Shown here: piece by piece, positions 28,159 through 43,155 of the stretch
Position numbering within the stretch: the first letter of the stretch is position 1
Layout: every line of letters begins with the position of its first letter
Assembly: GCA_026415195.1 (NCBI GenBank)
Contig: JAOAHO010000017.1
Span: 1-50,040 of the forward strand
From: Bacteroidia bacterium
GTDB lineage: Bacteria > Bacteroidota > Bacteroidia > B-17B0 > Aurantibacillaceae
Direction of reading: 5' to 3'
Length of the DNA stretch: 50,040 nt
Program-made: the position numbers and the translations under genes
Notes under the pieces: model-generated
Seen by the model: the letters and a program-made list of their open reading frames with translations, nothing else
What the model was told of the DNA's origin: nothing
Database searches by the model: none

Positions 28159-29184
28159 ATGGCAGGATTGTTTGATATGTTTTCGGTGGATATTGCCATC
28201 GACCTTGGTACGGCAAATACCATCATCATCTGCAACGACAAAGTGGTGGTGGACGAGCCCAGCATCGTGGCGATTGACCGAGCCACCAACAAAGTGATAG
28301 CCGTGGGCAGGCAGGCCCAGATGATGCACGGTAAAACACATGAAAACATTAAAACCATCCGCCCGCTGAAAGACGGGGTAATAGCCGATTTCCAGGCCGC
28401 CGAGGAAATGATCAAGCAGATGATCAAAATGATCAACCTGGGCAATCGGTTTTTCAAACCCTCCATCCGAATGGTAATCTGCATACCCAGCGGTATCACG
28501 GAAGTGGAAAAACGTGCCGTGCGCGACAGCGCCGAACATGCGGGAGCAAAGGAAGTGTATATGATCCACGAACCCATGGCAGCTGCCATTGGTATGGGCA
28601 TAGATGTGGAAGAACCGGAAGGAAATATGATTATTGATATCGGCGGGGGAACTTCGGAAATTGCCGTTATTGCCCTGGGTGGCATTGTATGCGACAAATC
28701 CATCCGCATCGCAGGAGATGATTTTAACTCTAACATAGAAGAATTCATGCGGCGCCAGCATAACATTTTAATTGGCGAGCGTACGGCAGAACGCATAAAA
28801 ATTGAAGTAGGGGCAGCCATGTCGGAAATTGAAAACCCTCCGGAAGATTTTCCAGTTCAAGGACGCGATCTGATGAGCGGCATACCCAAAGAAGTTACGG
28901 TGAACCATGTGGAAATTGCCCATTGCCTGGACAAGTCCATTTCCAAAATTGAAGAAGCCATCCTGAATGCACTTGAAATGACCCCGCCAGAACTGGCTGC
29001 CGACATCTACAAAAAAGGAATTTATATGGCCGGGGGCGGTTCACTTCTGCGTGGTCTGGACAAACGCATTTCCATGAAAACCAAACTGAAAGTTCATGTG
29101 TGTGAAGATCCCCTCCGGGCCGTAGCCCGCGGCACGGGAATTGCACTGAAAAATATTCATAAGTTTACGTTCCTGGAACGTTAA
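28159..29184 (+). CDS. mreB: Rod-shape actin homologue MreB
   Basis: Actin-like ATPase that forms membrane filaments and guides lateral wall synthesis. 341 residues. Phosphate-binding loops: IDLGTANTIIICNDKVVVDEPSI at the N-terminus and DIGGGTSEIAVIALGG in the middle; also IHEPMAAAIGMGIDV and the late YMAGGGSLLRGLD. It heads the mreB-mreC-mreD-mrdA-rodA series, whose products act together in the elongasome. Confidence 0.97.
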   Translation: MAGLFDMFSVDIAIDLGTANTIIICNDKVVVDEPSIVAIDRATNKVIAVGRQAQMMHGKTHENIKTIRPLKDGVIADFQAAEEMIKQMIKMINLGNRFFKPSIRMVICIPSGITEVEKRAVRDSAEHAGAKEVYMIHEPMAAAIGMGIDVEEPEGNMIIDIGGGTSEIAVIALGGIVCDKSIRIAGDDFNSNIEEFMRRQHNILIGERTAERIKIEVGAAMSEIENPPEDFPVQGRDLMSGIPKEVTVNHVEIAHCLDKSISKIEEAILNALEMTPPELAADIYKKGIYMAGGGSLLRGLDKRISMKTKLKVHVCEDPLRAVARGTGIALKNIHKFTFLER

Positions 29185-29193
29185 TCGGAAAGC

Positions 29194-30027
29194 GTGAGAA
29201 ATCTCATTCGCTTTATAATTAAAAACAATTTTTATTTTTTGTTTTTATTGCTGCAAACGCTAAGCTTGTATTTACTCTATTTAAGCCACACCTATCAGGG
29301 CAGTATTTTATGGAATACCTCCAAAGATTGGGCAGGAAAAATTTTCGCCTTGAGGGAAAAAGGATTGCGCTACCTGATGCTTGATGACATTAATCGAATG
29401 CTGATGCAATCATATCTGCAAAAACTCAGGTGCAATTCAAAACCACCCGAATTTCCGGGTACAATTAAATCTTCTTCGAACGCCTTACAATATTATGAAT
29501 TCCTGACGGCCGAAGTGGTGGACGTTACCAAGCACTATCAGAACAATTATCTCACCATCACCGGAGGCTCAAAGCACGGTGTAGTCAGGGATATGGGAGT
29601 GTTTTCCCCATCCGGAATTGTCGGTATAGTGCAGGATGTTTCGGAAAACTTTTCTCTGGTAATGTCGGTATTGCATTTAAAATTCAAGGTGAATTGTGAA
29701 ATAAAAAAAAACGGAATTTACGGCATGTTGCAATGGAACGGCTCCAGTCCATATTATGCCGAATTGACCGATTTGCCTAATCATACCAAAGCCATTCGTG
29801 GAGATACGATCGTAACGGGTAAGCTTTCGGGTATGTTTCCGGCCGGCATACCTGTTGGGGTGGTGGAGTACGTGGAGAGAAAACAAAATGAACCCTTTCT
29901 TACTGCCCACATCCGGCTTACCACGGAGTGGGGAAAATTGCATCAGGTGTTTGTAGTGAAGAACAAATACCTTCTTGAGGCTGACAGCTTGAAAATCAAA
30001 AGCATAAATGCTTTCGACAAACCATGA
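29194..30027 (+). CDS. mreC: Rod shape-determining protein MreC
   Basis: Bitopic inner-membrane protein with a periplasmic body that links MreB to PBP2. The start is GTG 29194, 9 bp after mreB. Residues 12-30 form the membrane helix (FYFLFLLLQTLSLYLLYLS). A coiled-coil segment follows, then two beta domains with TITGGSKHGVVRDMGVFSPSGIVGIVQDV and DTIVTGKLSGMFPAGIPVGVV, which are MreC hallmarks. 277 residues, typical. ATGA overlap with mreD. Confidence 0.93.
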   Translation: MRNLIRFIIKNNFYFLFLLLQTLSLYLLYLSHTYQGSILWNTSKDWAGKIFALREKGLRYLMLDDINRMLMQSYLQKLRCNSKPPEFPGTIKSSSNALQYYEFLTAEVVDVTKHYQNNYLTITGGSKHGVVRDMGVFSPSGIVGIVQDVSENFSLVMSVLHLKFKVNCEIKKNGIYGMLQWNGSSPYYAELTDLPNHTKAIRGDTIVTGKLSGMFPAGIPVGVVEYVERKQNEPFLTAHIRLTTEWGKLHQVFVVKNKYLLEADSLKIKSINAFDKP

Positions 30028-30536
30028 ATAAAACCATCCCTTATATAAAAGTGTTTGCGATAGTGTTTTTAATTCAAATTTTTGTACTGAGAAATTTGGA
30101 TTTGGGGGGATGGTTCATTCCTTATATTTATCCGTATTCCTTAATTATACTTCACCCGGCAATAAACCGAAACCTGGGGTTAATCATTGGTTTTATTTAC
30201 GGATTGTTGATAGATGTATTTTACAATACATCGGCCTTGCATGCATTTGCTTCGACTGCTTCCATGTTTTTCCGCCCGTTTTATTTAAAATATTTTTCTC
30301 CACGTGACGGTTTTGATGAGTTTAGTAAGATAAATGAGGGTTTTTTAGGCACGAATAACTATTGGTATTATACCCTTATCATGATGTTTTCACATCATTT
30401 TTTGTTGTTTGGTTTGGAGGCCTTTCGTTGGGATTATGTATTGACGGGAATGCTTCGTTCCATAACATCCTTGTTGTGCGGGGTTTTATTTTTGTACATA
30501 TTTAAAAAATTAATTTTTAACCGCATCGAGCCATGA
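30024..30536 (+). CDS. mreD: Rod shape-determining protein MreD
   Basis: 170-residue multispanning membrane protein, about five hydrophobic segments, with the MreD-like LIIGFIYGLLIDVFYNTSALHAFAS in the middle. MreD is poorly conserved in sequence, so the call rests on topology, this short motif and its place between mreC and mrdA, with 4-bp overlaps on both sides. Confidence 0.88.
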   Translation: MNKTIPYIKVFAIVFLIQIFVLRNLDLGGWFIPYIYPYSLIILHPAINRNLGLIIGFIYGLLIDVFYNTSALHAFASTASMFFRPFYLKYFSPRDGFDEFSKINEGFLGTNNYWYYTLIMMFSHHFLLFGLEAFRWDYVLTGMLRSITSLLCGVLFLYIFKKLIFNRIEP

Positions 30537-32386
30537 GCCAGCAAGGTTCTTATTATGCCGGGCGCAAGTGGCATTTTGTGATCGTTTTTTTGCTGGCTGG
30601 ATTGATTTTGATATTGCGGTTGTTTTACTTACAGGTTCTGGATGACCGTTATCGGTATATGGCTTATAACAATGCTTTGCGCAAGATTACCGAGTATCCG
30701 CTTCGCGGCTACATTTATGATAGGAACAACAAACTGCTTGTGTATAATGAACCATCGTTTGATTTGATGGTAATTCCGATTGAAGTTAAAAACTGCGACA
30801 CACTTGCACTTTGCAATATATTACAAATCGACAAACAAGAGTTTTTAAGAAGGATTAAAAAAGCTTCACAACATCCCAATTCGCCCAGAAAGGAAAGCAT
30901 TTTTGAAAAGCAACTGACGCCCGAATTGTATGTTGCTCTTCAGGAAAGGATGCATCGTTTTAATGGTTTTTTTGTTCAAAAACGTTCGGTGCGTAAATAT
31001 CCCAGGCCTATTGCGGCACATTTGCTGGGATATGTGGGCGAAGTGAGCAAACAAAAAGCAGCTTCTGATCCATATTATCGTGAGGGCGATTACATTGGCG
31101 TAAGTGGAATTGAAAAAAGTTATGAAGAGGTTCTGAGGGGAGTGAAAGGGGTACAGATTGCCATCACTGATGTGCATAATCGCATGGTGGGGCGTTATAT
31201 GAACGGATTATATGATACTTTAGCCATCCCAGGCAAGCCCTTATATTGTACCATAGATGCTGACTTACAGGAATATGGCGAAAAGTTGATGAAAAACAAA
31301 CGCGGTGCCATTGTGGCCATCGAACCTTCCACCGGAGAAATATTATGTTTGGTCAGCAGTCCCACGTATGATCCGAATTTATTGGTGGGCGGGCGCACGC
31401 GGGCAAAAAATTTCGCCATGCTCTATGCCGACAGCATAAACCGACCTCTCTTTAACCGAGCTTTGCAAGCCATGTATCCTCCAGGTTCGGTGTTTAAGCT
31501 TATCGATGCATTAATTGGGCAACACGAAAAAGTTTTGTTCCGCCACACTACTTATCCATGTGCCATGGGATATCCCCCCATGGGAGGCAAACCCAAATGT
31601 CACAGGCATCCGAAAGTGGATTTGCCCGGTTCCATTGCCCATTCCTGTAATTCCTATTATTCATATGTTTTTCGTTCAATTGTTGATCAAAAAAAATTTA
31701 AAACGTTCAAAGAGGGATACAACTATTGGAGAAACATGGTTATGAGCTTTGGCCCCGGCAGGAGCCTGGGCACCGATCTTCCTTATGATAAACCGGGGAA
31801 TGTGCCCAGCGAGAAATATTACGACCGCGTGTTCGGAAAAAACGGCTGGAGGAGCAATACGATTGTTTCACTGGGAATTGGGCAGGCAGAACTCACGCTT
31901 GTTCCGTTGCAAATGGCCAATGTGGTAGCCATTATTGCCAATAAAGGATATTACTATATTCCCCATTGTATCAGGGGAATTGGGAACGAAAAACAAATTC
32001 CAGATTCAGCTTTTTTAAAGAAAAATTATGTGGCTGTAACAGACACACAGTATTATAACCTTGTTATTGAAGGCATGCAAAAATGCCTTGAGTCGGGCAC
32101 GGCGTATACTTCAAGGCTTAAAGACATTACTGTTTGCGGAAAAACCGGAACGGCACAGAATCCTCATGGAAAAGACCATGCCGTTTTTATGGCTTTTGCA
32201 CCCAAGGAAAATCCCAAAATAGCCATTGCCTGTTTGGTGGAAAATGCCGGCTTCGGCGGAGTCTGGAGCGCTCCCATCGTTACGTTAATGATTGAAAAAT
32301 ATCTGAAAGGCAAAACCGACAGGCCTGAAGTGGAGAAAAGAATTCTGGAAGCCAATCTGTTGGATAATCAAAAAATTACTCCATGA
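30533..32386 (+). CDS. mrdA: Penicillin-binding protein 2 (elongation transpeptidase)
   Basis: Class B PBP that cross-links peptidoglycan during elongation, together with RodA. 617 residues: a short cytoplasmic tail, one membrane helix (FVIVFLLAGLILILRLFYLQ), a pedestal domain starting LRGYIYDRNNKLLVYNEPSFD, then the transpeptidase domain. Active-site motifs: SVFK with Ser319 and Lys322, SCN at 371-373, and KTG at 537-539. The first ATG overlaps the mreD stop. A cysteine-containing stretch (TYPCAMGYPPMGGKPKCHRH) occupies the zinc-site region known from some PBP2 proteins. Confidence 0.96.
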   Translation: MSQQGSYYAGRKWHFVIVFLLAGLILILRLFYLQVLDDRYRYMAYNNALRKITEYPLRGYIYDRNNKLLVYNEPSFDLMVIPIEVKNCDTLALCNILQIDKQEFLRRIKKASQHPNSPRKESIFEKQLTPELYVALQERMHRFNGFFVQKRSVRKYPRPIAAHLLGYVGEVSKQKAASDPYYREGDYIGVSGIEKSYEEVLRGVKGVQIAITDVHNRMVGRYMNGLYDTLAIPGKPLYCTIDADLQEYGEKLMKNKRGAIVAIEPSTGEILCLVSSPTYDPNLLVGGRTRAKNFAMLYADSINRPLFNRALQAMYPPGSVFKLIDALIGQHEKVLFRHTTYPCAMGYPPMGGKPKCHRHPKVDLPGSIAHSCNSYYSYVFRSIVDQKKFKTFKEGYNYWRNMVMSFGPGRSLGTDLPYDKPGNVPSEKYYDRVFGKNGWRSNTIVSLGIGQAELTLVPLQMANVVAIIANKGYYYIPHCIRGIGNEKQIPDSAFLKKNYVAVTDTQYYNLVIEGMQKCLESGTAYTSRLKDITVCGKTGTAQNPHGKDHAVFMAFAPKENPKIAIACLVENAGFGGVWSAPIVTLMIEKYLKGKTDRPEVEKRILEANLLDNQKITP

Positions 32387-33699
32387 ATACCGGCCGCTTT
32401 CAAAGAAATACCTGGCAAAATTCCGATAAGGTAACCATTTACCTGTATGTAGCGCTCGTTATTTTAGGATGGTTAAACGTTTATGCCGCGGTTTATAATG
32501 AAAACCACCCGTGGATTTTTGATATTAGCCAAAAATACGGTAAGCAGTTCCTTTGGATAGCCGGGGCCGGCATCATCGCATTTTCCATTATGCTGATGGA
32601 CACCGTGATTTTTACATCTTTTTCCTATGCGATTTTTGTTGGGATGTTGTTATTGAACGTGGCGGTAATTTTTTTGGGGAAAGACATTAAAGGTTCTCAC
32701 TCCTGGTTTAGGGTAGGAGGCATGGGTATACAACCATCTGAGTTCATGAAGTTTGCCATATTGTTAGCCATCAGTAAATACCTGAGCGAAAATCCAATAC
32801 CCATATATACTCCCGCCAATAAAGGCCGGTTGAAATCTTTTTGGTTAAAATGGAAATCCCTGATAGTATGCACCTTATTTGTGATAGTTCCCTTTGTGGT
32901 GGTTAAAATTTTTCAGAATGAAACCGGAGTTGCCCTGACTTATTTTTCCATAATGTTGTTGTTATACAGGGAAGGGGCGCCCTCGTGGACTATCGTGGCG
33001 GGTTTTGTGTTGGTGATAGTTTTCTTCTTGTCCATCATGATGGGTTCTAAACTTTGGCTGTTAGCCGTAATGGCGGTTCCTGCCCTGATTTTCTTCCTGA
33101 TATTTCCGGCCAAAATGTCGGTCAGGATTTTTTATTCTATGTTGATTTGGCTGGCATTATCGGGAACAAGTTTATTGATACAGAAAATTTACGACAAACT
33201 GGAACCACACCAAAAAAATCGCATAGAGGTATTGCTGGGAAGAAGCAAAGATGTCAAAGGTGTGGGATATAACGTTAATCAATCCAAAATTGCTATTGGT
33301 TCGGGGGGCTTTTGGGGTAAGGGATATCTGAAAGGCACACAAACCAAATACGACTTCGTTCCGGAACAGGAAACCGATTTTATTTTTTGCACGGTGGGAG
33401 AGGAGTGGGGCTTTGCGGGTTCTTCACTGGTGGTGGCCATGTATATTTTCCTCATCATCCGATTGATTTTTTTAGCCGAACGCCAGCGATCTTCTTTTTC
33501 CAGGATTTACGGATACGGCGTGGCGTGCATTTTTTTCATACATGTACTTGTGAATATCGGTATGGCTTTGGGAATAATGCCCGTTATAGGCATTCCGTTG
33601 CCCTTTTTCAGCTACGGAGGTTCTTCCCTTTGGGGGTTTACGGTATTGTTGTTTATTTTTATCCGTTTGGATGCTGAGCGGTTGTTTATCCTAAGGTAG
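32383..33699 (+). CDS. rodA: Peptidoglycan glycosyltransferase RodA
   Basis: SEDS-family membrane enzyme that polymerises glycan strands as partner of PBP2. 438 residues with about ten membrane segments. Family marks: GSHSWFRVGGMGIQPSEFMKF (split over the signature), FQNETGVALTYF, the extracellular-loop VKGVGYNVNQSKIAIGSGGFWGKGYLKGTQTKYDFVPEQETDFIF region with its conserved acidic residues, and GIPLPFFSYGGSSLW at the end. ATGA overlap with mrdA. Last gene of the elongasome run. Confidence 0.96.
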   Translation: MNTGRFQRNTWQNSDKVTIYLYVALVILGWLNVYAAVYNENHPWIFDISQKYGKQFLWIAGAGIIAFSIMLMDTVIFTSFSYAIFVGMLLLNVAVIFLGKDIKGSHSWFRVGGMGIQPSEFMKFAILLAISKYLSENPIPIYTPANKGRLKSFWLKWKSLIVCTLFVIVPFVVVKIFQNETGVALTYFSIMLLLYREGAPSWTIVAGFVLVIVFFLSIMMGSKLWLLAVMAVPALIFFLIFPAKMSVRIFYSMLIWLALSGTSLLIQKIYDKLEPHQKNRIEVLLGRSKDVKGVGYNVNQSKIAIGSGGFWGKGYLKGTQTKYDFVPEQETDFIFCTVGEEWGFAGSSLVVAMYIFLIIRLIFLAERQRSSFSRIYGYGVACIFFIHVLVNIGMALGIMPVIGIPLPFFSYGGSSLWGFTVLLFIFIRLDAERLFILR

Positions 33700-33716
33700 T
33701 GAAGAATTACTCTTCA
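33700..33716. terminator. Possible weak bidirectional hairpin between rodA and DUF4956 gene
   Basis: TGAAGA and TCTTCA form a perfect 6-bp stem with a 5-base loop. It sits just after the rodA stop and over the stop of the convergent gene. It is AT-rich and lacks a clear T-run, so its strength as a terminator is doubtful. Confidence 0.3.
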
Positions 33717-34378
33717 TAAAATACTCTGATATAGGCAGCATCCCTGAGATAATCTATTCGTTCAATTTCAAATTTGGTGATGGTATAACCCGTTCTGTTT
33801 TTCATGTCTTCCACAAAAAGATGTTTGTTCTCTGGTTTTAAATACTCGGGCTTGTCGTAAATGATTAATTTGGAGGTTTCTGATTTCCAAAGCTTGGGCG
33901 ACTCCATGAAAAAAACAACGGCAAGGATGATAAAATTATACAGTGAAATTTCTTCCCAGCTTCCTTTGGAAATAGCGGAAAGTAGGCCGATGGCAATGAC
34001 CAGAAACAGGTAGGTCAGGTTGCGTATGGAAATATCCTCGGAACGGTAGCGCATGATTCCGAAAATGGCAAAAAGCCCGAAGGCAGCCCCAAGGGACAAG
34101 TCAACCTTGTTCAGTAAATAAGTAATCAAAAAAATGACTACGTTGAACACCACAAAAGGAAGAAAAAATGCCTTGTTCCGATACTTGATATAATAAATTC
34201 CCCTGATAAGAACGGTAAGCGATACCAGATCTATAAACAAGCGAATAAAAAATTTTATGGTGATTTTGTTAAACCACCCGGATGAATTTTTATTAATTGC
34301 ATCGGCTGTTTCTATGGTATTGCCGCTGATTTCAACAAGTGAATCATTTAATGCCTGTAAAAGAATAAGGACAGTCAT
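33707..34378 (-). CDS. DUF4956 membrane protein
   Basis: 223 residues with about four membrane helices in residues 40-160 (for example LFIDLVSLTVLIRGIYYI, AFFLPFVVFNVVIFLITYLL, LTYLFLVIAIGLLSAIS), then a soluble C-terminal domain of about 70 residues. The loop AAFGLFAIFGIMRYRSEDISIRNLTYLF matches DUF4956. The family often lies next to VTC-domain genes, as here, which suggests that it handles or senses the polymer or its precursor. Function unknown. ATGA overlap with the VTC gene upstream. Confidence 0.83.
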   Translation of the reverse strand: MTVLILLQALNDSLVEISGNTIETADAINKNSSGWFNKITIKFFIRLFIDLVSLTVLIRGIYYIKYRNKAFFLPFVVFNVVIFLITYLLNKVDLSLGAAFGLFAIFGIMRYRSEDISIRNLTYLFLVIAIGLLSAISKGSWEEISLYNFIILAVVFFMESPKLWKSETSKLIIYDKPEYLKPENKHLFVEDMKNRTGYTITKFEIERIDYLRDAAYIRVFYEE

Positions 34379-35139
34379 GATTTTTCGATTTTATGAATAA
34401 GACGTATTTTTTCTTTAAAATTATTTTGTTTTAAGTTTTTATGCAAAAGCGCCATTCCGATACAGTATTTGCTGAGCCCCCCTTCTTTGATTCGAAACTC
34501 GTTCAGGTATGACATAAAAGGAGTTTTTTCTGAAAATGCACTCTTTTTCACTTCGGCAATCACAACATTATTCAAAATGATTTTCTTTTCTTCATAAATA
34601 AAGGAGAGGCAGGTATCAACTGTAACCCTTTCATTCATGTTGGAATGAGCCAACGTAGCACGAAAATACCCGATGCGCACCTGTGGTTCCAAATCCGAGC
34701 ATTTATAAGGGGTTCGGCTTTCAATAAAAGCCGCGGGTTGTCCTGTCAGTAAGGGTTGAGCATTAACATTACTTTCTATTCTTTTTTTTGAAGTTTGGTT
34801 CTTGTTGTTTTTAAATTTGATTTCCAGAAAACTTCGAATCTTTCCGCTGGAATAGGTTCGAATGCGTATTTTGTAACGGTTTGATTTCCACCGTTGATGG
34901 TCATGATACATGCTTAGTTCGCGGGTGTCGAAGTAAAGCGAGTTGTAGGCATGATTGCGGATTCCTGCAATTTCAAGAATCCGATAGTTTTCTTTACATT
35001 TTTCAAGGAGTTCAGGGAGAAAACTAATGTCAAACACATATTTTTGGTCTACCCTGTCCATGAAGCTGATTTTTTCTGCCTCTTCCAGGGAATAGGGATT
35101 AAAACCTTTTAATATTTCTTCCAATTGATTGGGCTTCAT
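34375..35139 (-). CDS. VTC-domain protein, polyphosphate polymerase-like
   Basis: 254 residues with the VTC/triphosphate-tunnel fold. Visible basic and acidic tunnel residues: MDRVDQKYVFDISFL, YNSLYFDTRELSMY, YKIRIRTYSSGKIRSFLEIKFK, QVRIGYFRATL, RVTVDTCLSFIYE, VVIAEVKKSAF and GLSKYCIGM. In yeast the VTC4 domain makes polyphosphate from ATP; bacterial members are mostly untested, and some may bind phosphate polymers without making them. It has no membrane segment, so it would act at the inner face with DUF4956. It overlaps genes on both sides by 4 bp. Confidence 0.85.
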   Translation of the reverse strand: MKPNQLEEILKGFNPYSLEEAEKISFMDRVDQKYVFDISFLPELLEKCKENYRILEIAGIRNHAYNSLYFDTRELSMYHDHQRWKSNRYKIRIRTYSSGKIRSFLEIKFKNNKNQTSKKRIESNVNAQPLLTGQPAAFIESRTPYKCSDLEPQVRIGYFRATLAHSNMNERVTVDTCLSFIYEEKKIILNNVVIAEVKKSAFSEKTPFMSYLNEFRIKEGGLSKYCIGMALLHKNLKQNNFKEKIRLIHKIEKS

Positions 35140-35636
35140 GGCTTTTCGTCCGAATTTTTTGTAAAATACTGGTATGTACGGGTTTCGATTAATTTTCCGT
35201 TTTTGTCGTAGGTTTTCTTTTCTGTTCTCAAACCTTTGGAATTATAACTGAAGGTTTCTTTTTCAATCACATTCCCGTCACCATCGAAGGTGGTTTCCGA
35301 GATTTTTTCATCAAAAGCACTGTAAGCATAAATTTTTTTAAAAACCAATTTGTTGTTTTCAAATTCGGCTTCTTCCAGCAGATTATTATTTTTGTCGTAT
35401 TTGTATGTTTTTTTCTTACGAATACTGCCGTCTTTGTTGAATTTAATGTTTTCCAATTCATTTCCCCGGGCATCATAGGTCGTTTGTTCGGCTTTATAAG
35501 AGGCCTCGCCTTCTTTAGCCATTTCAATAATTTGCCGTACGTTGTTTTTACGAATGTCTTTTTTGCTTTGTCCAAAAGAAACAAAAGACAAAAGCAGAGT
35601 AATGAAAAAAATGTTGATATGGGGTGTTTTATGCAT
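35136..35636 (-). CDS. Secreted YD/RHS-like beta-repeat protein
   Basis: 166 residues with a cleavable-looking signal peptide (INIFFITLLLSFVSFGQ). The rest is made of about five short repeats of the form YD-x-x-G-x-L-x-E-x-x-x-Y/F (TTYDARGNELENIKFN, YKYDKNNNLLEEAEF, TTFDGDGNVIEKETF, KTYDKNGKLIETRTY), like YD or RHS beta-hairpin repeats. No known enzymatic motif. It is the third gene of the minus-strand set between a lipoprotein and the VTC protein, with an ATGA overlap to the latter. Probably periplasmic or surface exposed; role unknown. Confidence 0.75.
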   Translation of the reverse strand: MHKTPHINIFFITLLLSFVSFGQSKKDIRKNNVRQIIEMAKEGEASYKAEQTTYDARGNELENIKFNKDGSIRKKKTYKYDKNNNLLEEAEFENNKLVFKKIYAYSAFDEKISETTFDGDGNVIEKETFSYNSKGLRTEKKTYDKNGKLIETRTYQYFTKNSDEKP

Positions 35637-35647
35637 AATAATTGGTC

Positions 35648-36073
35648 TTAATCATCAGCCATAAACATTTCTCCAAGATGGATGCTTTGATTATTCTTGG
35701 TAATTTCTACTTCTCTTATCACGGGTATTTTAGGAGCCTTCGGATTTGACGGAGGCCCTATATAAGCAATGGTGTCCGTAGAATAAAAATAAATTTTATA
35801 TTTCCCTTTACGTAGGTATTTGAATTCGAAATCTCCTTCATAATCGGTGCGGATGCGGTCGCCGTAACTGTGATCGTTACCATAAATGATATAAACTTCA
35901 ACATCGGCAGCGGGATATTTTTTGGAGAAGGTGTTCGTAGAGGCATCATATTTCAATAAGGTGATGTTTCCTTTGATGGAGGAATTGCCTCCTGGTCCCG
36001 GTTTTTTTTTGCACCACGTATGAAGATTTAATATCATTAATACAACGATTATCCAAACTATTTTGATGCCCAC
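35648..36073 (-). CDS. Small probable lipoprotein with a beta-sandwich (SpaA/CNA-B-like) domain
   Basis: 141 residues. Hydrophobic N-terminus (VWIIVVLMILNLHTWC) with Cys21 as possible lipid site, although the lipobox is poor, then a PGPGG linker. The body, SSIKGNITLLKY ... ADVEVYIIYG ... RTDYEGDFEFKYLRKGKYKIYFYS, has the pattern of carboxypeptidase-regulatory or Cna-B-like domains that decorate surface proteins. It overlaps the T9SS gene by 16 bp and precedes the YD-repeat gene by 11 bp. Function unknown. Confidence 0.7.
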   Translation of the reverse strand: MGIKIVWIIVVLMILNLHTWCKKKPGPGGNSSIKGNITLLKYDASTNTFSKKYPAADVEVYIIYGNDHSYGDRIRTDYEGDFEFKYLRKGKYKIYFYSTDTIAYIGPPSNPKAPKIPVIREVEITKNNQSIHLGEMFMADD

Positions 36074-37734
36074 TTAACGGTAAAATTTTGGTTATTGGCA
36101 GTTATGATTCTTATGAAATAAAAACCTGTTGAAAGAGGGAAACCGCAATGGTACATCGGGCAGGACACTGTTTCTTTTCCGATGATTTTTCCGGAGGTGG
36201 TGTATACTTCCAAAGTAAGGGGAAGAAGAGATACATCGGATTCCAGGTAAAAGCAACCGTTGCCGGGATTAGGAAAAATTTTTGCTTTTAATTCCCGGGT
36301 ACTCCATTCATGAAGCCCGTCAGGGCTGCCTGAAGAAAAGATTTTTTGTATGTAAATATCCCTTGCGCTTACGGCTTCATTCCGACGATCCTGCCAGGCA
36401 ACAATCATCCCTCCGTTTTCGTCATGAACATTTTTCGGGTCTGCCTGGGTGTTGGCAGCCGTACACACCGGTACATTCCAAAGGATATTTCCTGCAGCAT
36501 TAATTTTTGCCCCGGAAATATTCCATCCCTGAGCAGTGGAGTCCTGCCACACGATGTAGGCATTGCCTCCCGCGTCCACGTCAATGTTGGGATTAATCTG
36601 GTCGAAAGATCCTGTGCTTAATGGTTTCCCGTTTGCCTGTAAAAGTGCCGTGCCGTTTGTGTTGAATATTTGAAAGTAAATATCGGTATTGGTTACTGCT
36701 CTGTAATCTTTCCATACCACAAAAGCAAGATTTCCGTTGGTTTGCAGGTCGTGAGCGCTTTGGTTACCCGTGGCATTGCATACCGGAACGCCGTTAGTTC
36801 CCCACTGAGCCATTCCATTGTCGTTAATATATTGTATATATATGTCATAATCTAAAGCATTACGATTGTCTTGCCAGACGACCACAAATCCTGCTCCAAA
36901 TAATTCAATTTTAGGATTGGTTTGAGTTCCGGGAGCGCTGCATATCCAATATCCGTTTCCGCCCGGATTCCACAATCTTGTTCCCTGATCGTTGAGTTTT
37001 TGGCAATAAATGTCATGGTTGGCGCCGTTTCGTCGGTCCTGCCAAACCACATAAATTCCTCCGCTGGAAGCCATTTCCAGCCGAGGGTTTTTTTGATCAT
37101 AACCCGCATTGCACACTACGGTCCCCGTACTACCCCACAACCTTGTGCCGGAAGACGAAAGTTTTTGAGCCATAATGTTCCAGTTTCCTGCTGACGAATC
37201 CTGGAACACCACGTATGATTCACCGTTTGAATTAAGCGCAACTTTTCCGTCGTTTTGTGTTAAGCTGTTGGTAACTACCGGGTTGCCGTTTGTGGCCCAA
37301 AGCACGTTTCCGCTGGTATCAATCATTTGAGCATAGATATCCACATTCCCACTACGGAAATCATTCCAAATAATTACTGCTTTTCCGTTACGATAGTTTA
37401 TGTTGGGATTAGATTGGTGTGCCGAATGAATACACAGTGGCTTACCGTTTGCGCCCCATTGGGCCACGCCATTTTTATTAAATCGTTGAATGTAAATGTC
37501 GGCAGAAAGAGGGTTATTCCGATAATCTTCCCAAACGACGATGGCACCACCGTTGCCGTCTTCGGCAATTCTGACATTTTGCTGGTCGTTAAGTGCCGTA
37601 CTTACAGGTGTGTTAAGGCTAACATTGGAATTCCACTGCGAAAGGATTGCTATTGGAAAAACGAAAAATGCGGTAGCAAGAAAAACGTAAAGATCAATAA
37701 ATTTATTTCGTAACGGAACCAAAAAAGCAAACAT
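36058..37734 (-). CDS. T9SS-secreted beta-propeller-like repeat protein
   Basis: 558 residues from ATG 37734; an upstream TTG at 37749 is less likely. Signal peptide (LYVFLATAFFVFPIAILSQ), then eight repeats of about 54 residues, each with a core like GG-x-x-VVWQD-x-RN, then DIY-x-Q, then a G-x-x-LW turn. The last about 75 residues are a type A T9SS sorting domain (IFPNPGNGCFYLES ... GKIIGKE ... STGFYFIRI). It should cross the outer membrane and be attached to the surface or released. No catalytic motif was seen, and binding of a ligand or polymer is a guess. First gene of the five-gene set that ends in DUF4956. Confidence 0.85.
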   Translation of the reverse strand: MFAFLVPLRNKFIDLYVFLATAFFVFPIAILSQWNSNVSLNTPVSTALNDQQNVRIAEDGNGGAIVVWEDYRNNPLSADIYIQRFNKNGVAQWGANGKPLCIHSAHQSNPNINYRNGKAVIIWNDFRSGNVDIYAQMIDTSGNVLWATNGNPVVTNSLTQNDGKVALNSNGESYVVFQDSSAGNWNIMAQKLSSSGTRLWGSTGTVVCNAGYDQKNPRLEMASSGGIYVVWQDRRNGANHDIYCQKLNDQGTRLWNPGGNGYWICSAPGTQTNPKIELFGAGFVVVWQDNRNALDYDIYIQYINDNGMAQWGTNGVPVCNATGNQSAHDLQTNGNLAFVVWKDYRAVTNTDIYFQIFNTNGTALLQANGKPLSTGSFDQINPNIDVDAGGNAYIVWQDSTAQGWNISGAKINAAGNILWNVPVCTAANTQADPKNVHDENGGMIVAWQDRRNEAVSARDIYIQKIFSSGSPDGLHEWSTRELKAKIFPNPGNGCFYLESDVSLLPLTLEVYTTSGKIIGKETVSCPMYHCGFPLSTGFYFIRIITANNQNFTVKWASK

Positions 37735-37739
37735 GTGTA

Positions 37740-37771
37740 AAGTTAACAAAATATTAATTAATTGTTAACTT
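37740..37771. repeat. 10-bp perfect inverted repeat upstream of the T9SS operon
   Basis: AAGTTAACAA (37740-37749) and TTGTTAACTT (37762-37771) are perfect inverted copies separated by 12 AT-only bases. They fill the gap between the rpoN stop and the T9SS gene ATG. The position suits an operator or promoter-overlapping site. The right-arm decamer recurs before purH at 26614-26623. Confidence 0.6.
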
Positions 37772-42141: not shown

Positions 42142-43155
42142 ATGAAAAACCTCATAAAATACTCCATCACTTATTTCTTTTGGACAGTGTTATTCGTATA
42201 TGCCCAGGCGCCCTATTCCCTAAGCCGTTTGCCTTATGGTTATAAGGACCTGGAGCCTTACATCGATGAACAAACCATGATTATCCACCACACCAAACAT
42301 CATCAGGCATACATTACCAACCTGAACAAAGCCATTCAGGGAACCGAAGCAGAAAAGTTATCACTCGAGGATTTGCTTAAAAACATTTCCAAATATCCTG
42401 CTTCCGTAAGGAATAATGCCGGAGGGCATTATAATCATGCGTTGTTTTGGACCATCCTGACGCCCAATAAAAACACTTCACCAAGCAAGCGGTTATCGGA
42501 TGCTATTCAAAACCACTTCGGAAATTTGGATTCCCTGAAAAGCCTGATGAACCGTGAAGCCATGAACCGATTTGGTTCCGGGTGGGTTTGGCTGAGCGTG
42601 GACGAGAATAAAAAATTGTTTGTTTCGTCAACTCCCAATCAGGACAACCCGATGATGGACGTGGCAGATAAAAGAGGAACCCCCATTTTGGGAATTGACG
42701 TGTGGGAACACGCCTATTACCTGAAATATCAAAACAGAAGGGGAGATTATCTAGCGGCAATTTGGAATGTGATTAACTGGGAAGAAGTGAGCAAAAGGTT
42801 TGAACTTTTAGTGCCGAAGGGAAAATTCGACGACTGGCCCGAAATTAAGGAATTCCACAAGGTGATGGCCCAAACGTTTCATCCGTCGGAAGAAGGAAAC
42901 CTGGAACCCATAAAAACCCGTAGTGGAGAGATGGCAGAAAAAGCCAAAAAACTGATGGCTTCCAAAATTCCTGCCGAGTTCGATAAGAAAGAAATCAGGG
43001 CTTCGGTAAAAAAACTTGCCATTGAAAGTGAAAAACTACATAAAATGGTCCAAAAGAAAGCGCCTGATGAAAAAATCAAGAAATCGCTGAGCGATTTGCA
43101 TGATGTGTTTCATACCATTGTGGGATTGTGCTCGGGGGAGCAGCATCAACATTAA
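42142..43155 (+). CDS. Exported Fe/Mn superoxide dismutase with C-terminal extension
   Basis: 337 residues against about 200 for ordinary SODs. Residues 1-22 are a signal peptide ending near YAQA, so the enzyme is periplasmic or outside. The SOD domain (25 to about 225) keeps the metal ligands: His in IIHHTKHHQAY, His in HYNHALFW, and Asp/His in GIDVWEHAYYLKYQN. GSGWVWLSV is also present. Residues about 230-337 form a Lys/Glu-rich, probably helical domain (EMAEKAKKLMASKI, IRASVKKLAIESEKL) ending GLCSGEQHQH, a possible metal site. I do not know this extension from a named family. Probably co-transcribed with the crotonase gene. Confidence 0.9.
   Translation: MKNLIKYSITYFFWTVLFVYAQAPYSLSRLPYGYKDLEPYIDEQTMIIHHTKHHQAYITNLNKAIQGTEAEKLSLEDLLKNISKYPASVRNNAGGHYNHALFWTILTPNKNTSPSKRLSDAIQNHFGNLDSLKSLMNREAMNRFGSGWVWLSVDENKKLFVSSTPNQDNPMMDVADKRGTPILGIDVWEHAYYLKYQNRRGDYLAAIWNVINWEEVSKRFELLVPKGKFDDWPEIKEFHKVMAQTFHPSEEGNLEPIKTRSGEMAEKAKKLMASKIPAEFDKKEIRASVKKLAIESEKLHKMVQKKAPDEKIKKSLSDLHDVFHTIVGLCSGEQHQH

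Follow-up and report, generated by a model that had tools for sequence, protein, structure and literature searches.

The five genes lying between positions 33707 and 37734 on the minus strand of the window (the whole stretch of 50,040 nucleotides analysed here) form one tight operon, whose products are an enzyme that probably makes polyphosphate, the membrane protein paired with it and three proteins that are exported. These genes belong to a module that is conserved across Bacteroidia and usually includes a secreted CotH kinase. We propose, with a probability of roughly one half for the reading together with the mechanistic steps set out below, that these genes constitute half of a T9SS-linked envelope cassette, of which the other half, CotH-PorP/SprF-DUF2490, lies on another contig of the same genome (C64).

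Results

Organization of the operon

An overlapping set of five genes had been described in the initial annotation and is borne out by the coordinates, by Pfam and NCBIfam matches and by its recurrence across numerous genera and families. Each of the five genes was confirmed at its position; in order of transcription they are:

36058..37734, minus strand: T9SS-exported beta-propeller protein of eight repeats with a C-terminal type A sorting domain, 558 aa
35648..36073, minus strand: P4, putative small lipoprotein of 141 aa with a GTG start
35136..35636, minus strand: P3, exported YD/MORN-like repeat protein, 166 aa
34375..35139, minus strand: VTC-domain polyphosphate polymerase-type enzyme, 254 aa
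33707..34378, minus strand: DUF4956 inner-membrane protein, 223 aa

By their coordinates the propeller and P4 genes overlap by 16 nt, P4 and P3 are separated by 11 nt, and both P3/VTC and the adjacent same-strand pair VTC/DUF4956 overlap by 4 nt (ATGA). For the propeller gene the ATG at 37734 is the preferred start; an in-frame TTG lies at 37749. The operon is flanked in the window by the housekeeping genes rpoN, tyrS and rodA, and a scan for sigma-70 promoters and terminators returned sites no more numerous than in shuffled sequence.

Conservation among relatives

The proposed search for conserved synteny was carried out on 39 VTC loci from relatives, with the neighbourhood taken as within six genes. 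DUF4956 lies directly 3' of VTC in 36 of the 39 loci and P3 directly 5' in 25 (26 with P3 at the locus), while P4 is found within six genes in 26/39 and a DUF2490 barrel is present at the locus in 29/39. A T9SS-tagged CotH kinase is encoded within six genes of VTC at 21/39 loci and the propeller at nine, five of them without CotH in range and four with both, and one or the other is present in 26/39. The order varies, as the propeller may precede or follow P4 and DUF2490 may be upstream or downstream, and the flanking genes differ between relatives while the gene set persists. Neighbours varying freely among relatives, the outcome held to speak against a linked set, were looked for and are not what these loci show. 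In rumen Bacteroidales relatives VTC-DUF4956 occurs without CotH nearby, and at L090, the rumen locus that was examined, a Cthe_2159-type carbohydrate-binding protein is encoded instead.

Co-occurrence was assessed in 60 genomes, 36 with VTC and 24 without. P4 is present in 33/36 versus 1/24 of these (p=2e-12), P3 in 27/36 versus 0/24 (p=1e-9) and full-domain CotH in 29/36 versus 3/24 (p=2e-7), pooled p-values that overstate independence because the genomes are related; the safer table, with one genome per family, has P4 in 11/11 of the families that possess VTC and in 0/12 of those that lack it. Conversely, VTC is present in 33 of the 34 genomes with P4, and some CotH is encoded in 35/36 VTC genomes. 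Recurrence in so many genera and families goes beyond what chance would give, and synteny and co-occurrence together indicate that the suggested link of an inner-membrane VTC polymerase-type enzyme with surface and exported proteins is real and conserved.

A proposed CotH-containing half elsewhere in the genome

The report of no CotH is correct for the window but not for the organism, whose genome encodes, outside the window, two CotHs bearing T9SS type B tails. Contig C64 carries a CotH-PorP-DUF2490 trio, comprising a CotH with a T9SS type B signal and a PorP/SprF protein, and in the close relative G011 both halves are joined in the order CotH-PorP-DUF2490-propeller-P4-VTC-DUF4956. The CotH domain search used several seeds, the first search having given one CotH branch only. 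In the resulting tree the C64 CotH is the sister of the G011 CotH (100/98 support), and this group stands next to the CotHs from G001, G017 and G028, which are encoded beside or close to the propeller gene; in each of these genomes the propeller directly adjoins a CotH. From these close relatives we infer that the C64 trio may act with the operon in the window.

Exported proteins

The claim of a propeller-like T9SS protein was well founded. The C-terminus of the protein carries a TIGR04183 sorting domain (32.5 bits versus a cut-off of 23; Pfam PF18962 stays below its cut-off, 21.6 versus 27), the N-terminus is signal-like, and the genome encodes a T9SS, with SprA, PorP/SprF and 76 sorting-domain matches. 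With its signal peptide and this type A domain, and with the secretion system encoded in the genome, the protein qualifies as T9SS type A cargo. Its repeats match the beta-propeller repeat model TIGR04275 (6e-21; 73.9 bits, below the 85-bit cut-off), and their W-x-D residues are mostly invariant across 19 homologues. Since the profile compared with PDB sequences matched proteins only through their T9SS tails, the propeller fold rests on an AlphaFold2 model, in which eight four-stranded repeats are followed by a C-terminal domain (mean pLDDT 88.4) and with which Foldseek retrieved solved propeller proteins at E values down to 8.7e-12.

P4 gives weak matches to prealbumin/CarboxypepD_reg-like models (SdrD_B, SpaA, CarboxypepD_reg), all below cut-off, which suggest a fold of this kind. 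The cysteine after the hydrophobic leader, the first residue of a C-K-K-x-x-G-x-GG motif, is kept throughout the family alignment except in a degraded copy at L065. Many members have S-C or similar at the end of the leader; the copy studied here has HTW at -3 to -1, which is not a canonical lipobox. In P3 the leader ends ahead of a conserved Q-x-K-K, and MORN_2, RHS_repeat and YD_repeat models match at E values of 4e-5 to 7e-4, with RHS and YD alone exceeding the cut-off.

VTC and DUF4956

The VTC protein matches PF09359 at 2.8e-26 (93 bits versus a cut-off of 23; residues 29-233, profile positions 2-235). In searches of the PDB a profile of 40 VTC sequences reaches the yeast Vtc2 and Vtc4 structures, and a single-sequence search gave a chance match only. 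Fifteen charged or serine residues, in keeping with the conserved basic and acidic tunnel of the family, are invariant in the 40 sequences (R88, K90, R92, R94, E106, K108, K110, K118, R160, E170, D175, E196, K198, S223 and K224). The R-x-R of Vtc4 (R264/R266 as read here) aligns with R92/R94, and E196 is the counterpart of E426 by motif only, the PDB alignment having ended before it. The protein has no strong transmembrane segment. It is a probable enzyme of the polyphosphate polymerase type. As PPK1 is also present in the genome, VTC would not be the sole polyphosphate synthase and plausibly has a special role. Replacement of PPK1 by VTC was considered and rejected, PPK1 being present here and the two being unassociated in the 60-genome co-occurrence.

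DUF4956 matches PF16316 at 2.7e-50 (171 bits versus a cut-off of 30.6). An AlphaFold2 model (pLDDT 83.7) has long helices and then a beta-alpha-beta-beta arrangement, predicting membrane helices with a C-terminal ferredoxin/ACT-like domain, and the hydropathy profile and the distribution of charges point to a C-terminus in the cytoplasm. Foldseek gave no significant solved relative (best E 0.096) and the profile found no match among PDB sequences. Several genomes (G002, G033, G041 and G050, for example) encode DUF4956 but no VTC homologue, so DUF4956 also has a function independent of VTC, and strict dependence on VTC is rejected.

Discussion

CotH, VTC and DUF4956 are found together in distant phyla. 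CotH+VTC+DUF4956 is known as a set of accessory genes at Pel loci of Gram-positive bacteria (PMC7112168, PMC12345266), and a 2025 paper found the three-gene arrangement nowhere outside the Pel locus (PMC12345266). In Streptococcus intermedius deletion of the DUF4956 or the CotH gene alters Pel level and aggregation, whereas for deletion of VTC no change was reported under the conditions tested (PMC12345266). The Pel cassette (CotH, VTC, DUF4956 and in some cases DUF4832; SIR_1591-1594 in S. intermedius) shares with the Bacteroidia module the three core families, a secreted CotH and a tie to the cell surface and aggregation. The Bacteroidia form differs in lacking Pel and in having recurrent P4, P3 and DUF2490 and T9SS signals on CotH and propeller. 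PelG was found in 0/60 genomes, including the one studied here, so that a Pel association is rejected. The module is a T9SS-linked variant of the known cassette, since that cassette has been described on Pel operons and is here without Pel; in the window VTC and DUF4956 adjoin as in the cassette, with no contiguous CotH. To call it an undescribed system was therefore too strong, the trio being known at Pel loci, although in this form we found no description in the literature of a link between VTC and surface proteins.

Three further known systems resemble the module in part. NELoc-2 of Clostridium perfringens (PMC2879425) has pairs of VTC and a membrane protein (annotated 'tubulin/FtsZ') with CotH and glycosyltransferase 2; VTC there adjoins a membrane protein of DUF4956-like size, presumably DUF4956 itself, with CotH nearby, but the locus is Gram-positive and without T9SS, and has duplicate pairs and a chitin synthase-like glycosyltransferase. 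The eukaryotic VTC complex (Vtc1/3/4), which in yeast couples polyphosphate synthesis to membrane translocation (PMC9911596), has the catalytic VTC/TTM domain in common with the module, in which the membrane part is a separate DUF4956 protein rather than a Vtc1-type domain and the SPX domain is lacking. In Bacteroides BT3498-BT3499, DUF4956 adjoins DUF2490 in a Bacteroidota genome, as here, but the pair appears as iron-responsive in a table of the source only, and the passage mentions no T9SS partners (PMC10434189).

The mechanism we favour is a supply of phosphate or polyphosphate to surface assembly. VTC, whose family residues are intact, would build polyphosphate chains in the cytoplasm from the phosphate of ATP, and DUF4956, translationally coupled to it, would hold it at the inner membrane and either pass the chain outward, like the yeast Vtc1/Vtc4 membrane channel, or sense phosphate state through its ACT-like domain; as DUF4956 has no solved structural relative, such a channel is putative. 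Judging by signals and families, the putative lipoprotein P4, the exported P3 and the DUF2490 barrel would function in the periplasm and at the outer membrane, and T9SS would place CotH kinase and propeller on the cell surface, where the former may phosphorylate surface proteins or matrix and the latter may bind a ligand, probably a glycan. In favour of this explanation speak the operon structure, the synteny and co-occurrence, the joined halves in G011 and the invariant VTC residues, together with the S. intermedius DUF4956 and CotH deletions and the coupling of synthesis to translocation in yeast. Counted against it are the S. intermedius VTC deletion, the genomes with DUF4956 but not VTC and the rumen loci without CotH. 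The Bacteroidia form separates the trio from Pel polysaccharide, and its added recurrent partners place the ends of the module in named compartments, cytoplasm and inner membrane on one side and the T9SS-built surface on the other, so that whether an inner-membrane polyphosphate enzyme supplies or controls extracellular phosphorylation or adhesion becomes directly testable.

It is possible, if somewhat unlikely, that the module is regulatory, DUF4956 being an MgtC/ACT-like sensor. Jointly with VTC it would adjust the phosphate or ATP state and in this way govern the making of a surface adhesin or exopolysaccharide, and no polyphosphate would cross the membrane. SIR_1592, described as MgtC transmembrane plus ACT, alters Pel level when deleted (PMC12345266), and the modelled C-terminal domain, the existence of DUF4956 without VTC and weak, non-significant Foldseek matches to aspartate kinase ACT domains (E 0.7-0.9) point in the same direction. 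Yet MgtC is absent among the best 25 of 36 Pfam families for 39 DUF4956 members, the structural search was without significant match, and the constant presence of P4, P3 and DUF2490 is left unexplained.

We regard as unlikely a complete export route, in which VTC-DUF4956 would make polyphosphate or another activated phosphate and drive it over the inner membrane, and P3, P4 and DUF2490 would conduct it outward, to serve as phosphate donor for T9SS-displayed CotH kinases or as a surface polymer bound by the propeller. If true, it would constitute a bacterial route of polyphosphate export and explain how kinases can act in the extracellular space despite its scarcity of ATP.

Phosphate scavenging, with surface propeller or CotH-type proteins and DUF2490 importing phosphorylated substrates and VTC storing the phosphate as polyphosphate, is quite unlikely: VTC and a predicted outer-membrane barrel do share one locus, and the BT3498-3499 genes are listed as responding jointly to iron (table in PMC10434189), but the annotated neighbours of the module included no recognisable phosphatase, Pho regulator or phosphate transporter. 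Highly improbable, and already disfavoured, is a loose neighbourhood in which VTC-DUF4956 is a housekeeping polyphosphate pair and the genes for exported proteins have been carried along in a conserved region without being related to it; the housekeeping flanks and variable gene order would suit this view, but the set is retained among relatives whose flanking genes differ, and P4 is present exactly where VTC is across 23 families. Least tenable is the original view of a CotH-less variant with the propeller standing in for CotH, which draws on the window itself and on the five of nine propeller loci without CotH in range, as CotH is usual in relatives, four loci have both genes, the propeller adjoins CotH in three genomes, and the C64 CotH, orthologous to the one contiguous with the operon in G011, already contradicts it here, unless C64 was binned into this genome by mistake.

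A Pel-independent form of the CotH-VTC-DUF4956 set

The initial annotation considered this operon a candidate for an undescribed system, yet a set of CotH, polyphosphate polymerase and DUF4956 genes is already known from streptococci, clostridia and bifidobacteria, where it accompanies Pel genes as an accessory (PMC7112168). In S. intermedius, deleting the DUF4956 or CotH gene altered Pel amount and aggregation, no change was reported upon deletion of the polymerase gene, and the study came across the three-gene arrangement only alongside Pel (PMC12345266). Unlike this Pel-linked cassette, the Bacteroidia form is linked to the T9SS and its genomes lack PelG (0/60 genomes searched). It is therefore a Pel-independent, T9SS-linked variant.

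Operon structure and the T9SS protein

The genes, assigned to families by Pfam and NCBIfam searches, are in transcription order:

37734-36058, - strand: T9SS protein, 558 aa, propeller
36073-35648, - strand: P4, lipoprotein-like, 141 aa
35636-35136, - strand: P3, exported repeat protein, 166 aa
35139-34375, - strand: VTC
34378-33707, - strand: DUF4956

Their successive spacings (-16, +11, -4 and -4 nt) are typical of a translationally coupled operon. rpoN and tyrS lie upstream on the same strand, and downstream 7 nt separate the operon from a convergent rodA-like gene. Read from its translations, 28159-33699 (+ strand) is an apparent mreB-mreC-mreD-PBP2-rodA cell-shape cluster converging on DUF4956. 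A superoxide dismutase-like ORF (42142-43155) has a signal-like N-terminus and an additional lysine-rich C-terminal extension of ~100 residues with HQH at its end.

The genome has a T9SS, as it encodes SprA, PorP/SprF and 76 sorting-domain matches. The description of the first protein as propeller-like was correct: its model comprises a C-terminal domain and eight four-stranded repeats, a W-x-D type motif recurs every 51-56 residues, and Foldseek matches propeller enzymes and lectins.

Conservation and the location of CotH

Up to 20 kb around VTC was taken from relatives and the genes were clustered. The proposed synteny was borne out in the 39 VTC loci counted, DUF4956 lying directly 3' of VTC in 36, P3 directly 5' in 25, and P4 and DUF2490 within six genes in 26 and 29, respectively; in that range CotH occurs in 21, the propeller in nine and both together in four. 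Over 60 genomes, P4 is present in 33/36 with VTC vs 1/24 lacking it (this single case, G018, is a 78% complete genome with P4 at a contig end), and taking one genome per family in 11/11 vs 0/12, as compared to 11/11 vs 2/12 for full-domain CotH; since thresholds were picked after the lists had been viewed and the sampled genomes are related, exact p-values for this co-occurrence deserve little weight. In one relative (G024, locus L065, 8658-10958) P4, P3, VTC and DUF4956 are all interrupted by stops or frameshifts while the propeller and two CotH genes are intact, reflecting either decay of half the module or assembly indel errors.

Many relatives share the order LytTR regulator, arylsulfotransferase-like T9SS protein, CBM-like T9SS protein, CotH (lamin-tail domain and T9SS tail), P4, P3, VTC, DUF4956, DUF2490. 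The VTC and propeller closest to ours are those of genome G011, ordered CotH (type B tail), PorP/SprF, DUF2490, propeller, P4, VTC, DUF4956. The reported absence of CotH holds for the five-gene set but not for the genome, in which contig C64 carries CotH, PorP/SprF and DUF2490; the gene after these three is unrelated and reads like lysyl-tRNA synthetase. The C64 and G011 CotHs are 68% identical and sisters in the tree (100/98), where their group neighbours CotHs that adjoin the propeller in G001, G017 and G028. The simplest reading is a single ancestral locus, split here between DUF2490 and propeller. The draft state of the assembly (116 contigs, 93% complete) leaves some room for C64 having been placed by a binning error, though its contents fit. 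Contig C116 holds a second CotH-PorP pair, its CotH on a different branch. At L101 7484-11253 and L113 7734-11303 a second CotH followed by PorP/SprF lies distant from VTC genes, and such pairs may be a separate T9SS type B unit.

Proposed function

We propose, with a probability of about one half, a single envelope module in which VTC-DUF4956 would make, and may export, polyphosphate or would control phosphate state, while T9SS-placed CotH and propeller would act at the surface. The VTC protein scores 93 bits against the VTC family (cut-off 23), a 40-sequence profile matches yeast Vtc2 and Vtc4 domains of known structure, and as the charged residues expected along the VTC/TTM tunnel are invariant in 40/40 relatives, it is likely an active polymerase.

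The main rival, a purely regulatory role for DUF4956, is a lesser but real prospect. The streptococcal homologue is described as an MgtC-like membrane part with an ACT domain (PMC12345266), for or against which our Pfam and Foldseek searches do not point; in the AlphaFold2 model of the DUF4956 protein here (pLDDT 83.7), long membrane helices precede a beta-alpha-beta-beta domain, Foldseek gave no significant match among solved structures, and charge distribution suggests a cytoplasmic C-terminus. That no phenotype is reported for the streptococcal polymerase mutant is the strongest point against an obligatory VTC role. The boldest version of the module, in which CotH would use exported polyphosphate, seems improbable. 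VTC as a gap-filler for polyphosphate synthesis is ruled out, as PPK1 is also encoded.

Since DUF4956 occurs in G002, G033, G041 and G050 without VTC, it has some role apart from VTC. Such DUF4956 genes (L118 6252-6929, L120 6305-6955, L121 6156-6932, L122 6263-6916) have no VTC homologue in their vicinity, nor was one detected elsewhere in the genome; in L122 the following genes encode a 341-aa protein that by eye resembles CotH and a phosphoesterase-like protein. Several rumen Bacteroidales loci carry VTC-DUF4956 with CotH not nearby. Together with the lone DUF4956 genes, they indicate that VTC-DUF4956 is the module core, with exported partners that vary yet stay surface-type. In one rumen locus (L090, 10849-14467) DUF4956, an outer-membrane-like protein, a small exported protein and a Cthe_2159-type carbohydrate-binding protein adjoin VTC, replacing CotH and P4/P3; among the genes that follow VTC-DUF4956, one resembles DUF2490 at its C-terminus.
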